DNA of 64,000 nucleotides from Haloarcula sp. CBA1127 (GTDB taxonomy: Archaea; Halobacteriota; Halobacteria; Halobacteriales; Haloarculaceae), in assembly GCF_001485575.1 (NCBI RefSeq), contig NZ_BCNB01000006.1:1488001-1552000 (forward strand), given 5' to 3'. The notes under the pieces are model-generated. The model worked only from the letters and a program-made list of their open reading frames with translations, was not told the origin of the DNA and ran no database searches. This document shows, piece after piece, positions 2,665-12,181 of the stretch (position 1 is the stretch's first letter; each line of letters starts with the position of its first letter). A program made the translations under genes and the position numbers.

Positions 2665-2916
2665 ATGACTGCGACACATCAGACCCACCTCACCGCCGAG
2701 TACGGCAGCGCCGACCGGGCTCGCGCCATCGAGCGGAGCATTCGTCCCGAAATCGACGATATCGAGGGCAACCGGACGACGGCGCGGCTCAGCCGGAATG
2801 GACGGCAAGTCGAACTCACTGTCGAGGCGGCCGACCTCGTCGCACTGCGGGCCGGCATCAACACGTGGCTGACGCTGCGTGGCGTTGCCGAGGACGCTCT
2901 GGCGGGACGGAAGTGA
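2665..2916 (+). CDS. pcc1: KEOPS complex subunit Pcc1
   Basis: 83 residues, the usual size for Pcc1. This is the small dimerising subunit of KEOPS, which makes N6-threonylcarbamoyl-adenosine at position 37 of tRNAs that read ANN codons. The Pcc1 fold is supported by SIRPEIDDIEGNRTTARLS in the middle and by ALRAGINTWLTLRGVAEDA near the C terminus, a conserved helix with an N-S/T-W-like core. It follows rpoP by about 107 bases. The partner catalytic subunits are not in this window. Confidence 0.9.
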   Translation: MTATHQTHLTAEYGSADRARAIERSIRPEIDDIEGNRTTARLSRNGRQVELTVEAADLVALRAGINTWLTLRGVAEDALAGRK

Positions 2917-2980
2917 CGAAAGCGACGCGAAAATAACGGAGGCGTCACAGAGATACCGGAAACAAGTCGGTCGCCAAGCG

Positions 2981-3583
2981 CTACTGCCGGTATCGGTCCG
3001 GGACGTGGGCCGCAATCGACTCGGGGACGTTGCCGAACACGACGGGGGCCAGGGTTGCCAGTCGACGCCGGAGGAGGCTGTACGTCGCGCCGGTGACGAG
3101 GGCCGCGGCGACGACCCACCGGAACGGCCCGTCCAGAACGACGAACAACGGGGCACCCGCAAGTACCATCAGTCCCACATCCGACGGCGCACCGTCGTAC
3201 TGTATCCATCGCTTCGGCGGCCGCCACTGCCCGCGAACGTGGTCGTACACGGCGCGTTCGGACGTGCCTTCCCACGGGCGGAGTTCCAGGCCGCCGCCGT
3301 ACCGGTCCATCCGGCAGTGGAGAGCAGCGCCCATCAGTACGAACGTGAGCGCGACGAGCAGCGGTGTCTGGAGGACGGCGGTGAACCCGGCAGTCGGGAC
3401 AGCCGCGAGTGTGTACCCGCTGGGATAGTGCAGCGTGCGCCGGTGGCCCGAGTACAGGTCGAGGTCGGGCAGAACGCCACCGACGAGGCCGCCAGCGAGC
3501 GCTACCGCGGCGTGGTCTGGCGCAAGGACGAGCAGCGGTGTCGCGATGGCGAGCCCCGCTATCGCGTGCGTCGGCAGCATCAT
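2981..3583 (-). CDS. membrane-bound metal-dependent hydrolase-like protein (YdjM/DUF457 type)
   Basis: 200 residues from the first ATG of an ATG-ATG pair at 3583; a TTG four codons upstream is a weaker choice. The start MMLPTHAIAGLAI, then GGLVGGVLPDLDL about 35 residues later, is the His and Pro-Asp-Leu-Asp pattern of the YdjM/LexA-binding-like membrane hydrolase family. There are about four or five transmembrane segments with a soluble stretch near residues 95-135. The reaction is not established for this family. It is convergent with pcc1 and divergent from the gene at 3659. Confidence 0.7.
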   Translation of the reverse strand: MMLPTHAIAGLAIATPLLVLAPDHAAVALAGGLVGGVLPDLDLYSGHRRTLHYPSGYTLAAVPTAGFTAVLQTPLLVALTFVLMGAALHCRMDRYGGGLELRPWEGTSERAVYDHVRGQWRPPKRWIQYDGAPSDVGLMVLAGAPLFVVLDGPFRWVVAAALVTGATYSLLRRRLATLAPVVFGNVPESIAAHVPDRYRQ

Positions 3584-5123: not shown

Positions 5124-5158
5124 GCCTCAGTAAAGTGGTTGAACAGCATACCAGGGTG

Positions 5159-7927
5159 ATGATTGGAAACGACCTCGACGACGTCGCGTTTGCGGGAGCG
5201 AGACAGACCGGCGCTGCCAGTCGAGACATCGAAGTCGTGTATCTCGATTCCGACGCGACGGCACGGGAGCAGATACACGAGGGGCTGGCGGACCACCACG
5301 CCGACATAACAGTGACGAGCGTGGCAACGATAGATGCCGCACTGGAAGCCGCCGCGTCGACGGCGGTCTCCTGTCTCGTCCTCGACCCGGCTGGACTGGG
5401 AGATATCCCGGCCGCACTGGTGTCGAACGACCGCTACCCGGTCGTCCTCTACACCGACGCCACTGCGACGGACAGCGCTGCAACTGTCTTCGAGGATGCG
5501 GAGACGGTCGTCAGGAAACAGGGAGACAGACAGCCGATGTTTCTGGCAGAGAAGATCGTCAGCGTCGCGTCGGTGTCGGCTGATCGGACCGAGTCCGCAC
5601 TCCGAGATGCGCTGTCCGGAATCGAATCGCGTGCTGAAGCGAACGAAATCGCTGTCCTGCTGGCGGACGACGGGACGGTACACTGGTCGAGTGATTCGGT
5701 ATCGACGTTCGTTGACCGCCTCGACGATACCCGCCGGGTCGAGGGCTTTTACGACACCATGCGGACGGCACTTCCCGACACGCCCAGCGGCCATCGACAG
5801 TTACAGCGGCTCCGGGACGCCCCGACCGAACCGGTTACGGTCCGGGTTCCGGGTAGCGACCGCGACCAGTACCTCCTTCGACACGGGCACGAGCTACCGG
5901 ACGCCGCGGGGGGACTCACGCTCGTCCTGCTGCGAGACATCACCGAAACCGCCCGCCGTGATGCCCGCACGGCGCTGCTGGATCTCCTCGTCGAGCAGGC
6001 ACAGGACGGCCTTTACACGCTCGACGAACGTGGTGTCATCGACTTCTGTAACGAGTCGTTTGCGGCGACCCTCGGGTACGAGCCGGACGAACTGTGCGGT
6101 GAACACGCCTCGACAGTGCTGGCCTCCGGTGAACTCTCGAAGGGGCAGGCGACTGTTGAAACGCTGCTCGAAACGCCTGAGAAGGAGAGTACGACTGCCG
6201 ATCTGACGTTCTGTCGGAAAGACGGTACCGAACGGGAGGTGTCGATCAACTACACGCTGATTCACGACGAAGACGGCAACTACAGCGGGCTGATCGGCGT
6301 CGCTCGGGACATCACGGAGCACTGTAACCGCGAGCGGGAGTATCAGGAGATGACTGAGCGATTGAATTTCGCGCTCGAAGGCGCGGAACTCGGCGTCTGG
6401 GACTGGAACCCCAAAACCAACGACGTCACCTTCGACGAGCGCTGGACCGGGATGCTCGGCTACACCAGAGACGAACTGGAGCCACACTACGAGACGTGGG
6501 CCGACCTCGTCCATCCTGACGACCTCGACCGAGTGGAACAAGCGCTCGCGGAACTGAAGTCCGGAGAGACCGATCTGTATCAGAGCGAGTTCCGGATGCG
6601 GACGAAAGACGGGGAGTGGCGATGGATCCGGGACATCGGCAAGGTGTTCGAGTGGAACGACGACGAGGCGGTCAGGGCCGTCGGGATCCATCAGGACATC
6701 ACCGAGGAGCGGACACGTCAGGATGCGATCGAACGACAGCGCGACGAACTGGCGACACTCAACGGGGTCAACATGCTCATACAGGACCTCATTCACGCTC
6801 TGGGTGGTGCCGCGACTCGCCACGAGACTGCAGAGACAGTGTGTGAGCGCATTGTCGAATCAGACCTCTGTGACCTAGCGTGGATCGGTGAGCGAGCCGG
6901 CGCAGACGATAGACTCGTGCCGAAAACGGTAGCCGGCGACAATGGTGACGTTCTCGACGAACTCATCGTTAGTGACGGGAACGACCAAGTGCTGTGTGAA
7001 ACAGCCCTCGTGACAGGTGCGGTCCAGACGATACAGGACTGCGGCGACCCGACCGAATTCAAGCAGTGTGGGGCCGCTGCTCGCGAGCAGGGGTTCAAGT
7101 CCGCCGCAGCGATTCCACTGGTTCAGGGGAACACTGTCCACGGTGTTCTCTGCGTGTACGCCGACCAGCCAGCGGCGTTCGGCGGCCGAATAGCTGACAG
7201 TTTCGCAGTCCTCGGTAAGATGGTCGGGTACACGCTCGCCGCGGTCCAGAACAGGCAACTGCTGTCTGACGATACCGCGCTCGAACTGACATTCGAATCG
7301 GAATGCTCTGACATACCCCTTGTCTCGGCGGCGAATGCGTACGGCTGCCGAATCGAGGTCGTCGAATTTGTCGATACCGAGCCGACGCATCTCCTCTATG
7401 TCTCCGTTGACGAAGGGCCGCCCGATGCAGTCTCTGCGCATCTCTGTTCTCAGACGGAGATTCTCGGTTCGCGGGTCGTCCGTGCAGACGGTTCCAGCGG
7501 CGTTATCGAGTTACAGGTTACAGAAACCGTCCAATCGCTGCTTCTCGATGTCGGTGCTCGCTGCCGGACGGTGGTTGCCGACGACGGGGCGCTCTCTATT
7601 ACTGTCGAGGCCCCGCCGGATGCCGACTCCCGGGCGATACGGGACGCAGTCTCCGACCGGGTGCCTGACAGCACGCTGACGGCAAAGCAGGAGTGCGACC
7701 AGGCAGACAACATACTTGACGCCGAAACGGACCCACGCAACCACCTGACTGACCGTCAGGAGGAAGTTCTCCGCAGGGCCTTCCTGACGGGCTACTACGC
7801 CTGGCCCCGGGATACGAACGCCGAGCAACTGGCAGAGAGGCTCGGTATCGCGTCACCGACGCTCCATCAGCATCTCCGGCGAGCGCATCGGAATCTCATC
7901 GATGCTGTGTTCGATATGCAGCGATAA
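5159..7927 (+). CDS. Bat-like (bacterio-opsin activator) multi-sensor transcription regulator
   Basis: 922 residues. Order of domains: a receiver-like module at about 10-130, with the acidic pair reduced to LDSD but the Asp in CLVLDPAG and a Lys kept; a PAS-like stretch ending in LRDITE; two clear PAS/PAC units (ending GVARDITE and GIHQDITEE); a GAF domain at about 520-690; the bacterio-opsin-activator N domain; and a C-terminal HTH_10 helix-turn-helix (LTDRQEEVLRRAFLTGYYAWPR, then AEQLAERLGIASPTLHQHLRRA). Such proteins sense redox or light and activate opsin genes. Halorhodopsin lies 1.5 kb downstream with a matching promoter site. An in-frame GTG at 5135 is an alternative start. Confidence 0.85.
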   Translation: MIGNDLDDVAFAGARQTGAASRDIEVVYLDSDATAREQIHEGLADHHADITVTSVATIDAALEAAASTAVSCLVLDPAGLGDIPAALVSNDRYPVVLYTDATATDSAATVFEDAETVVRKQGDRQPMFLAEKIVSVASVSADRTESALRDALSGIESRAEANEIAVLLADDGTVHWSSDSVSTFVDRLDDTRRVEGFYDTMRTALPDTPSGHRQLQRLRDAPTEPVTVRVPGSDRDQYLLRHGHELPDAAGGLTLVLLRDITETARRDARTALLDLLVEQAQDGLYTLDERGVIDFCNESFAATLGYEPDELCGEHASTVLASGELSKGQATVETLLETPEKESTTADLTFCRKDGTEREVSINYTLIHDEDGNYSGLIGVARDITEHCNREREYQEMTERLNFALEGAELGVWDWNPKTNDVTFDERWTGMLGYTRDELEPHYETWADLVHPDDLDRVEQALAELKSGETDLYQSEFRMRTKDGEWRWIRDIGKVFEWNDDEAVRAVGIHQDITEERTRQDAIERQRDELATLNGVNMLIQDLIHALGGAATRHETAETVCERIVESDLCDLAWIGERAGADDRLVPKTVAGDNGDVLDELIVSDGNDQVLCETALVTGAVQTIQDCGDPTEFKQCGAAAREQGFKSAAAIPLVQGNTVHGVLCVYADQPAAFGGRIADSFAVLGKMVGYTLAAVQNRQLLSDDTALELTFESECSDIPLVSAANAYGCRIEVVEFVDTEPTHLLYVSVDEGPPDAVSAHLCSQTEILGSRVVRADGSSGVIELQVTETVQSLLLDVGARCRTVVADDGALSITVEAPPDADSRAIRDAVSDRVPDSTLTAKQECDQADNILDAETDPRNHLTDRQEEVLRRAFLTGYYAWPRDTNAEQLAERLGIASPTLHQHLRRAHRNLIDAVFDMQR

Positions 7928-8031: not shown

Positions 8032-8439
8032 ATGAGTAACCAAAGGAATGGAGGGTCTCAGAGTGACCAGTGGTGTGGGATGACGCCGTCGGACAGAACG
8101 CTGTCTACGGCGGACGTAGACGACGTGTTCGAGGTTTTGGCTGATTGGCGGCGCCGTGCCGTCTGTCACTACTTCGCGAGCGGTGACCAGGCGGCCGCTG
8201 ACGTTGCGGCGCTAGCCTCGGCAATATCGGAGCACGGGGAGACGGGCACGGTCGATACAACAGATACGTCACCCTCGACGATCCGAACACAGCTCGAAGA
8301 GGAGCACCTGCCAGTGCTCCATCGGATCGGGCTCATCGACTACGACGAGCGAAGCAGCGCAGTGAAGTACTGGGGGTCCCCCACCGTCGAAAAGTGGGCT
8401 GACCACGCGGAAGCTGTCACGCAGCGGACCGACTTCTAA
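8032..8439 (+). CDS. DUF7344-type winged-helix protein
   Basis: 135 residues. The pattern DVFEVLADWRRRAVCHYF, then RTQLEEEHLPVLHRIGLIDYDERSSAVKYWG, is the winged-helix arrangement of DUF7344 proteins: a helix with an Arg triplet, a helix leading to the LP-L-G-IDYD hinge, and a short wing. These are presumed DNA-binding regulators of unknown target. It has its own AT-rich upstream region and lies between the Bat-like regulator and hop. A second protein of the same pattern is encoded at 23422. A role in opsin control is inference from location only. Confidence 0.75.
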   Translation: MSNQRNGGSQSDQWCGMTPSDRTLSTADVDDVFEVLADWRRRAVCHYFASGDQAAADVAALASAISEHGETGTVDTTDTSPSTIRTQLEEEHLPVLHRIGLIDYDERSSAVKYWGSPTVEKWADHAEAVTQRTDF

Positions 8440-8519: not shown

Positions 8520-9281
8520 ATGAATCTCCCACCGGTCGGACTCGGCACGATGGGTATCGAGGACGAGTCCGTCGTTCGGACGGCTGTCGACTGTGGCTAC
8601 CGCCACCTCGACACCGCGCAAATCTACGACAACGAGAGTACTGTGGGCGCGGGTATCGCCACTGCCGAAACCGACCGGGCTGACCTGACTGTCGCGACAA
8701 AACTCTGGATCGACGCCCTCGGGGCGACCGCTGTCCGTCCAAGCACGGAAGCCAGCCTCGACCGACTCGGTCTCGACACCGTCGACCTCCTATACGTCCA
8801 CCGCCCACGTGGCGACTACGACCCCGAAACGACGCTGCCCGCCGTCGAGGCCGTGCGCGAGGCAGGACTGACAGAGCACGTTGGGCTCTCGAACTTCGAC
8901 CCCGACCAGTTGGCTGTCGCGCGCGACCACCTTGACACGATTGCTGCACATCAGGTCGAGTTCCATCCGCTGTTCTGGCGCGAAGCATTGCTCACTGACG
9001 CCCAGAAACACGGCTACCCGCTGGTCGCGTACGCACCGCTGGCCGGCGGTCGCGTGTTCGAGGAACCGACCATTGTCGACATCGCTGCCCAGCACGAGAC
9101 GACCCCGGCCGCCGTCAGCATCGCCTGGGTGACCAGCTACGAGAACGTCGTCACGATTCCAAAGGCGTCCTCACGGTCCCACCTCGAAGCCAACCTCGCC
9201 GCTGCCGACCTGGAACTGACCGACGCCGAAATTGCGCGCATCGAAGCCATCGAGCGTGAAGAAGAGCTGTTCCCGGAGTGA
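8520..9281 (+). CDS. aldo/keto reductase
   Basis: 253 residues forming the AKR barrel. The catalytic tetrad is visible: D31 and Y36 in YRHLDTAQIYDNE, K61 in VATKLW and H94 in DLLYVHRP. The NAD(P)H-binding stretch is IPKASSRSHLEANL near the C terminus. Substrate cannot be read from the sequence; these enzymes reduce aldehydes or 2,5-diketo acids in the cytosol. It starts at ATG 8520. It sits between the DUF7344 gene and halorhodopsin; a link to retinal chemistry is conceivable but not shown. Confidence 0.9.
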   Translation: MNLPPVGLGTMGIEDESVVRTAVDCGYRHLDTAQIYDNESTVGAGIATAETDRADLTVATKLWIDALGATAVRPSTEASLDRLGLDTVDLLYVHRPRGDYDPETTLPAVEAVREAGLTEHVGLSNFDPDQLAVARDHLDTIAAHQVEFHPLFWREALLTDAQKHGYPLVAYAPLAGGRVFEEPTIVDIAAQHETTPAAVSIAWVTSYENVVTIPKASSRSHLEANLAAADLELTDAEIARIEAIEREEELFPE

Positions 9282-9396
9282 GTCGCCCGCCGCTGACGCG
9301 AATGGATAGGCATAGCATGGGACGGTTTAACACAGTAATTCCACCTCGTGTCCGGGACTGGTCTTGTCCTTCCGAAACCCGAATCTAACAGCGGAT

Positions 9397-9411
9397 ACCG
9401 ATACCGTTTGG
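9397..9411 (+). promoter_or_regulatory. candidate Bat upstream activating sequence (UAS) of hop
   Basis: The 15-mer reads ACC-N6-GTTTGG, matching the fixed ends of the Halobacterium bop-type UAS (ACC...GTTnGG). It ends 9 bases before the TATA-like TTTAAG at 9421-9426. If transcription starts about 26 bases after that box, the site spans roughly -51 to -37, close to its place in the Halobacterium bop promoter. Confidence 0.6.
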
Positions 9412-9420
9412 GTACGCGTC

Positions 9421-9426
9421 TTTAAG
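9421..9426 (+). promoter_or_regulatory. TATA-like box of hop
   Basis: TTTAAG lies 24-29 bases before the hop ATG at 9450, predicting a leaderless or nearly leaderless transcript. Confidence 0.55.
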
Positions 9427-9449: not shown

Positions 9450-10280
9450 ATGACAGCTGCCAGTACCACTGCAACGACAGTGCTTCAGGCGACACAGTCA
9501 GACGTGTTACAGGAGCTACAGTCGAATTTCCTCCTGAACTCATCGATCTGGGTGAACATCGCGCTGGCGGGCGTCGTCATCCTCCTGTTCGTCGCGATGG
9601 GTCGTGACATCGAATCGCCCCGCGCGAAACTCATCTGGGTCGCGACGATGCTGGTGCCGCTGGTCTCGATTTCCAGCTACGCTGGCCTCGCTTCCGGGCT
9701 GACAGTCGGCTTTCTGCAGATGCCACCGGGCCACGCCCTCGCCGGGCAGGAGGTCCTGTCACCGTGGGGCCGCTACCTGACGTGGACGTTCTCGACACCG
9801 ATGATTCTCCTGGCGCTGGGCCTGCTGGCTGACACCGACATTGCGTCGCTGTTCACCGCAATCACGATGGACATCGGGATGTGTGTGACCGGCCTCGCCG
9901 CCGCGCTCATCACCTCCTCGCACCTCCTCCGCTGGGTGTTTTACGGCATCAGCTGTGCGTTCTTCGTCGCGGTCCTGTACGTCCTGCTCGTCCAGTGGCC
10001 GGCCGACGCAGAGGCCGCCGGAACGAGCGAGATATTCGGGACGCTCAAGATTCTCACCGTGGTGCTGTGGCTGGGCTACCCGATTCTGTGGGCGCTGGGC
10101 TCCGAGGGCGTTGCCCTCCTGAGCGTCGGCGTCACCTCGTGGGGTTACTCCGGTCTGGACATCCTCGCAAAGTACGTATTCGCGTTCCTGCTCCTGCGCT
10201 GGGTCGCCGCCAACGAGGGCACCGTCTCAGGGTCTGGGATGGGCATCGGCTCCGGCGGCGCTGCGCCCGCAGATGACTGA
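9450..10280 (+). CDS. hop: halorhodopsin, light-driven inward chloride pump
   Basis: 276 residues with seven transmembrane helices. Aligned by eye with bacteriorhodopsin, R108 matches R82, T111 matches D85, S115 matches T89 and A122 matches D96. This T-S-A set is the halorhodopsin signature and removes both proton-relay carboxylates. The retinal Schiff-base lysine is K241 in GLDILAKYVFAF, with counter-ion D237. Helices C-D (TPMILLALGLL...CVTGLAAALITSSHLLRW) closely follow known halorhodopsins. The N terminus before helix A is about 30 residues and the Gly/Ser-rich tail is typical. It carries its own promoter with a Bat-type UAS. Confidence 0.96.
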   Translation: MTAASTTATTVLQATQSDVLQELQSNFLLNSSIWVNIALAGVVILLFVAMGRDIESPRAKLIWVATMLVPLVSISSYAGLASGLTVGFLQMPPGHALAGQEVLSPWGRYLTWTFSTPMILLALGLLADTDIASLFTAITMDIGMCVTGLAAALITSSHLLRWVFYGISCAFFVAVLYVLLVQWPADAEAAGTSEIFGTLKILTVVLWLGYPILWALGSEGVALLSVGVTSWGYSGLDILAKYVFAFLLLRWVAANEGTVSGSGMGIGSGGAAPADD

Positions 10281-10861: not shown

Positions 10862-10903
10862 CGAGACAGTGCGACTCTACGGAGAGAGTCGCTGTCTGTC
10901 TCG
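10862..10903. terminator. long hairpin over the aspS stop codon
   Basis: CGAGACAG-t-GCGACTCT pairs with AGAGTCGC-tgt-CTGTCTCG around a 6-base loop holding part of the aspS stop codon, so the stem covers the last codons and the first 3' untranslated bases. It could act as a transcript 3'-end or stabilising structure. There is no adjacent T-run. The protein ends in the family-typical PRDRQRLSP, so coding constraint explains part of the stem. Confidence 0.4.
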
Positions 10904-10911
10904 CGGGAACA
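10877..10911. repeat. aspS 3'-end repeat, in-gene copy
   Basis: This is the copy inside aspS; on the minus strand it encodes the last residues ([10 protein letters not shown]) and the TAG stop. Together with 10739-10773 it forms a 35-base direct repeat pair with a 138-base period. Confidence 0.7.
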
Positions 10912-12181
10912 GCACCGCTTCCCGGATGTTCTCCAGCCCGAGCATCGTCATGATGAGGCGCTCGCCGCCGAGGCCCCAGCCGGCGTGTGGCGGCATACCG
11001 TACTTGAACATCTTGGTGTAGTACTCGAAGGCTTCCGGGTCCAGGCCCTGCTGTTCGAACCCTTCGACGAGGTGGTCAAAGCGGTGCTCACGCTGGCCAC
11101 CAGAGACCAGTTCCATCGACGGGTGCATCATGTCGAAGCCGGTCGAGACCTCTTCGTCGTCGTCGTGGTCCTTGATGTAGAACGGCTTGATCTCGCTGGG
11201 CCAGTCCGTGATGAAGTAGTGCTCGCCGACTTCCTGCCCGAGGACGTGCTCGGCCTCCGTCGAGAGGTCGTCGCCCCACACCAGCGGCTCGTCGAGTTCG
11301 CCGGTGGCGTTGATTTTGTCGAGCGCTTCCTCGTAGGTGAGTCGCGGGAAGTCGCCCTCAGGAGCCGCGAACTCGTCTTCAAGACCGAGCGCTTCGAGCT
11401 GGTCCTGACAGTTCTCGGCGACGCCCTCGTAGGCGGACTGGACGACGTGTTCGCAGGCGTCCATCGCCTCGGTGTGGTCGTAGAACGCCGACTCGAAGTC
11501 AATGGAGGTCGCCTCGTTGAGGTGCCGCGGCGTGTTGTGCTCTTCGGCGCGGAAGATCGGGCCGATTTCGAAGACGCGTTCGAGGCCGGAGCCGACCATC
11601 AGCTGCTTGAACAGCTGCGGGCTCTGGTTCATGAACGCTTCTTGGCCGAAGTACGTGATCGGGAACAGCTCGGTGCCGCCTTCGGTCCCCGTGGCGACGA
11701 TCTTCGGCGTGTTGATCTCCGTGCAGTTGATATCGCGGAACGCCTCGCGGACCGACCGGAGGACCTCCGCGCGGATCTCGAAGATGGCCTTCACCTCGTC
11801 CTTGCGGAGGTCGAGCGTCCGGTTGTCGAGACGGGTCGGCAGTTCGGCGTCGACCTTGCCCGACGGGTCAAGCGGCAGTTCGGGATCGGCCTCCGAAATC
11901 ACGTCGACAGACTCCGGCGTGACTTCGACACCGGTCGGCGCGCGCGGCTCCTCTTCGACGTCGCCGGTCACCGAGATGACCGACTCGCGCTGGACGTTCA
12001 GCCCCGTTTCCACGAGGTCGTCGTCCATCTCGTCTTTCTCGAACTTGACCTGTATCTTTCCGGTGGTGTCTCGAAGGATAAGGAAGGCAATACCACCGAG
12101 GTCTCGGATCTCGTGGACCCAGCCGGCGACGGTGACCGTGTCACCCGGCGCTGCGTCCGCCGTGTAGGTTCGGTTTTCCAT
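10877..12181 (-). CDS. aspS: aspartyl-tRNA synthetase, predicted non-discriminating
   Basis: 434 residues, archaeal class IIb synthetase. The N-terminal OB-fold anticodon-binding domain (about 1-105) is followed by the class II core, with motif 2 at [15 protein letters not shown] and motif 3 at [14 protein letters not shown]. Two positions known to set tRNA specificity in archaeal AspRS read His23 (GWVHEIRD) and Pro82 (EPRAPTG), where discriminating enzymes have Trp and Lys, so it should charge both tRNA-Asp and tRNA-Asn. GatB in this window then fits amidation of Asp-tRNA-Asn. A TATA-like CTTAAG 24-29 bases upstream suggests a leaderless transcript. Confidence 0.95.

Follow-up and report, generated by a model that had tools for sequence, protein, structure and literature searches.

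A predicted Bat-type activator site shared by halorhodopsin and carotenoid genes in Haloarcula

The Bat regulon and its upstream activator sequence (UAS) are already known from four genes, bop, brp, crtB1, and bat, and what has been described in Halobacterium covers the proton pump together with its pigment. The UAS at these four Halobacterium genes reportedly has the form ACCcnactagTTnGG, a description said to go back to Baliga and DasSarma in 1999 and Baliga et al. in 2001. Our literature search found no report that places hop, the halorhodopsin gene, in the Bat regulon or that extends the regulon to Haloarcula crtI through a site that has drifted; the primary UAS papers lay outside that search, and an earlier mention is possible. 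In Halobacterium, transcription is activated when Bat binds the UAS at low oxygen and in the light (PMC2253796, PMC3184054, PMC1885257), and at bop both Bat and Brz are needed (PMC2253796, PMC3184054). On sequence grounds, the comparisons reported here would add the chloride pump to the regulon, at about half of the distinct hop promoters examined in the order, and would also add Haloarcula crtI; production of opsin and provision of its chromophore would then be coordinated for both pumps.

In the window analyzed here, a 64-kb stretch of Haloarcula DNA, hop encodes a light-driven chloride pump of 276 amino acids (9450 to 10280, plus strand; PF01036, E = 2e-48) and belongs to the hop ortholog group, which has members in 133 of the 293 genomes analyzed for the order. 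Upstream lies the 15-mer ACCGATACCGTTTGG (ACC-GATACC-GTTTGG; 9397 to 9411, plus strand), separated by a nine-base spacer (9412 to 9420) from the hop TATA box TTTAAG (9421 to 9426, plus strand), which was assigned from its sequence and from the AT-rich peak found 9 to 12 bases past the motif across hop promoters. The letters and the spacing are exactly those given in an earlier sequence-only reading of this DNA. Because the ATG at 9450 comes 24 bases after the TATA box, the hop transcript is probably leaderless. We delimit the predicted upstream activator site as ATACCGATACCGTTTGG (9395 to 9411, plus strand), with the core CCGATACCGTTTGG (9398 to 9411, plus strand) and a consensus common to crtB1 and crtI.

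Like the Halobacterium UAS, the Haloarcula site stands directly before the TATA box at a fixed spacing (9 bases here, 8 to 9 in other hop promoters), has CC...GG ends and a GTTnGG half-site, both seen in CCGATACCGTTTGG and common to crtB1 and crtI, and occurs at crtB1, which the Bat gene adjoins. As in a Bat regulon, it is common to rhodopsin and retinal genes (crtB1, crtI, and hop) that would be co-regulated. Unlike the Halobacterium UAS, it is found ahead of hop and crtI, and its ACTAGT core has been lost (hop, CCGATACCGTTTGG; crtI, CCGATGCAGTTTGG); no central ACTAGT-like palindrome is present at Haloarcula hop, although one is present in other genera.

The looser pattern ACC-N6-GTTnGG is not enriched in the 64-kb window (4 matches versus 2.31 expected, with at least 4 matches in 20 of 100 shuffles of the window), and the Haloarcula hop site scores 2.1 bits on the order-wide hop matrix, below the 95% null of 5.9. 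What makes the site significant is not the 15-mer itself but how it is conserved, where it lies, and that it recurs at crtB1 and crtI. When hop promoters were compared across Haloarcula, as the sequence-only reading had advised, ATACCGATACCGTTTGG proved invariant over 17 bp in all 14 distinct promoters despite diverged flanks, the next longest invariant run upstream of hop in the same set being 6 bp, and the distance from site to TATA box was constant even where all flanks had changed. The single more diverged species (locus L015) retains TACCGATACGGTTCGG. No second conserved block was found upstream of this 14- to 17-bp site in the Haloarcula hop promoters.

When 95 nonredundant regions upstream of hop from outside Haloarcula were searched for motifs without supervision, by expectation maximization, the result was CCTTACTAGTnnGG (log-likelihood of 227, versus ∼42 for shuffled sets), which we take to be essentially the published bop UAS ACCcnactagTTnGG. 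Counted above a 99% null threshold at 99 hop loci, this motif occurs in 46 of the 99 proximal regions, 1 of the 99 distal regions, and none of the 99 coding regions. It lies mostly at −52 to −59 from the ATG, about 56 bases before it, and 8 to 9 bases before the TATA box, the TATA peak falling 9 to 12 bases past the motif end. In Haloarcula, the hop site stands at this position too and keeps the GTTTGG right half and the outer CC, with a drifted core. The earlier suggestion of a Bat-type UAS at hop is supported at both scales of comparison, the putative site being conserved across Haloarcula and having counterparts at hop genes across the order.

Several other genera have the CCTTACTAGTnnGG motif in their bop promoters as well. 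In Haloarcula, drift at bop has produced CCATATATTTTGGG and relatives, and the bop site of the genome studied here, CCCTATATTTTGGG, is likewise drifted and unlike the hop site. It had been proposed that regulation here concerns hop "rather than" bacteriorhodopsin; this part of the proposal is not supported, since bop carries a conserved site of its own, placed as at hop. Two variants were observed in passing. Haloarcula bop promoters (L159 to L173) carry CCWTATATTTTGGG-like forms that are conserved in the genus and unlike the hop, crtB1, and crtI sites, and in one genus the hop promoters (L073, L074, and L080) have CCCGATACTGYCGGTTTGGTATCG in place of the site, with a longer inverted repeat, CGATAC...GTATCG.

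The interval between bat and crtB1 contains CCGAAGCAGTTTGG, which does not vary among 13 Haloarcula genomes and stands eight bases ahead of a CTTAT-type TATA sequence. The joint consensus of the hop and crtB1 sites, CCGAWRCMGTTTGG, occurs exactly three times in the 4.36-Mb genome, at crtB1, at hop, and at crtI, and in every case a TATA box follows closely. The third of these (ATACCGATGCAGTTTGG, contig position C6:2659217; core, CCGATGCAGTTTGG), which was not used in making the consensus, precedes a TATA box 53 bases ahead of crtI, the phytoene desaturase gene (CrtID equivalog, E = 7e-228). Across 30 genomes of the genus, CCGAWRCMGTTTGG has 40 matches, versus 3 for the reversed pattern, and most of them are this same trio. 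We regard the trio as our strongest argument that hop shares its activator with pigment synthesis.

Sites with one mismatch to CCGAWRCMGTTTGG at C6:517505, 398623, 1265990, and 1107177 all lie inside open reading frames (ORFs), and two others (C6:1814649 and C6:2514402) are not clearly coding and have no rhodopsin gene. In genomes G244, G289, and G227, exact matches fall within or next to ORFs that have no relation to rhodopsin, and no such site was seen in the sop2 and blh promoters. A GTG-started CPxC ORF of 45 to 49 codons starts precisely 52 bases past the crtB1 site (L207, about 2887 to 3030); we set it aside as a gene, the coding reading being weak because its codon positions vary evenly (11, 12, and 15).

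We counted 22 BAT-domain and 36 HTH_10 matches in the genome, where bat, crtB1, crtY, and brp form one cluster 360 kb from hop. The Bat encoded there (526 amino acids; C6:1135706-1137283) resembles Halobacterium Bat in its PAS_4, GAF_2, BAT, and HTH_10 domains and in its linkage to crtB1, crtY, and brp; unlike Halobacterium Bat, it has no linkage to bop. Within the window, a paralog with the order PAS-PAS-GAF-BAT-HTH_10 (5159 to 7927, plus strand; 922 amino acids from the ATG at 5159, or 930 from a GTG at 5135) ends 1.47 kb before the hop site. Between it and hop are genes for a DUF7344 protein (8032 to 8439, plus strand; PF24035, E = 5e-14) and an aldo/keto reductase (8520 to 9281, plus strand; PF00248, E = 4e-52), and downstream of hop an aspS-like tRNA synthetase ORF (10877 to 12181, minus strand), named by sequence resemblance and present in the same block in relatives, forms the other end of the syntenic block.

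The sequence-only reading had described a Bat-like regulator about 1.5 kb upstream of the site. The PAS, GAF, BAT, and HTH_10 domains and the synteny with hop in Haloarcula agree with that description. In a tree built from the BAT and HTH_10 domains, whose deep support is modest, the window regulator does not group with the brp/crtB1-linked and bop/hop-linked Bat proteins and forms its own clade (support, 1.0), nearer to L025 and L032. It differs from Halobacterium Bat in this separate position, in its two PAS domains, and in its longer N terminus. The brp-linked Bat groups in the same tree with Bat-type genes that adjoin hop in other genera. At six such loci (L021, L106, L109, L112, L123, and L125), a Bat-clade gene is divergent from hop at a distance of 103 to 195 bp, and five of the six hop promoters have the canonical site, which could be usable by both genes.

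Taken together, these observations make it probable that 9395 to 9411 is the Haloarcula Bat UAS, that hop belongs to a regulon with crtB1(-crtY-brp) and crtI, and that the activator is most likely the brp-linked Bat. A Bat-family activator would bind next to the TATA box and, once bound, would recruit or stabilize TBP/TFB at hop; the best candidate is the canonical PAS-GAF-BAT-HTH_10 protein of 526 amino acids encoded beside crtB1, and the chloride pump would be coupled to its chromophore supply through a common activator. Since the same site stands at pump and pigment genes, halorhodopsin and retinal synthesis are probably turned on jointly. Binding, activation, the signal, and the choice of binding paralog at Haloarcula hop we infer from Halobacterium and from sequence. 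A counterpoint to control by the brp-linked Bat is that Haloarcula hop lacks the ACTAGT found at the center of the bop UAS; moreover, CCCTATATTTTGGG at bop is unlike the hop site in the same genome, so that one protein would need to accept both. The hop locus would offer short, exact, and testable sites and a case in which gene adjacency points to the wrong regulator.

Adjacency is what suggested, in the sequence-only reading, that the regulator encoded at 5159 acts on hop, and a relative of it does occur in every hop-bearing Haloarcula genome of the order-wide set, on the same contig, ∼1 to 4 kb upstream and in the same orientation. We nonetheless consider it unlikely that this paralog binds the hop site and controls hop. 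Among the HTH_10 proteins of the genome that were inspected, only it and Bat have the recognition helix core HQHLR, and it keeps some probability because of this shared core; yet 37 of 53 columns of its helix-turn-helix are invariant among Haloarcula, compared with 51 of 53 for the brp-linked Bat (identical in 13 of 14 genomes), and in five species its recognition helix SPTLHQHLR has become SSTLLQHLR or SPTLLQHLR beside an unchanged hop site. The protein is not a member of the Bat clade, G244 and G292 retain its gene block while lacking hop, and no matching autoregulation site was found in the region upstream of its own gene. The same type of site stands far away at crtB1 and crtI, and a separate Bat is encoded in the bat-crtB1-crtY-brp cluster, where the sister site is also found. 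The synteny of the neighbor is real and conserved, but the neighbor is a weaker candidate than the brp-linked Bat. The hop site has drifted from the order-wide consensus in the very clade that has this type of neighbor, and a quite unlikely variant would have the hop-adjacent paralog taking over hop from Bat, perhaps along with crtI and crtB1, with the site drifting to suit it; if true, this would be a lineage-specific rewiring of the rhodopsin regulon, with chloride-pump control separate from proton-pump control.

Joint action of Bat with the paralog, or with some further factor of, say, the Brz zinc-finger type, the two perhaps dividing oxygen and light between them, has a precedent in the dual requirement at Halobacterium bop (PMC2253796, PMC3184054) and could draw on the two HQHLR helices of the genome; the single 14- to 17-bp element, with no second conserved block upstream, argues against it, and we hold it to be decidedly improbable. 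It is scarcely credible that the match arose by chance or that it represents a general promoter element, namely a BRE variant. The loose pattern alone is not significant in the window and the match to the order-wide matrix is weak, but chance was rejected on account of the 17 bp that are invariant amid a diverged region and of the genome-wide trio of exact consensus matches, all at phototrophy or carotenoid genes, and a BRE was rejected because of the same three matches and the spacing, the site ending 9 bases before the TATA box, which is too far.

Other features of these neighborhoods were noted. Two Haloarcula genomes (G292 and G244; loci L244 and L245) keep the regulator, DUF7344, aldo/keto reductase, and aspS-like genes with no hop between the last two, which reflects either hop loss or the state before hop arrived. 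In two relatives (L010, 7116 to 7862, and L062), a second aldo/keto reductase copy lies on the other side of hop. At L210 (C6:2916000-2925000), another BAT/HTH_10 regulator is encoded 3.4 kb away from a sensory rhodopsin II-like gene; a TFB-like gene separates the two, and the rhodopsin gene is adjoined by a transducer-like gene.
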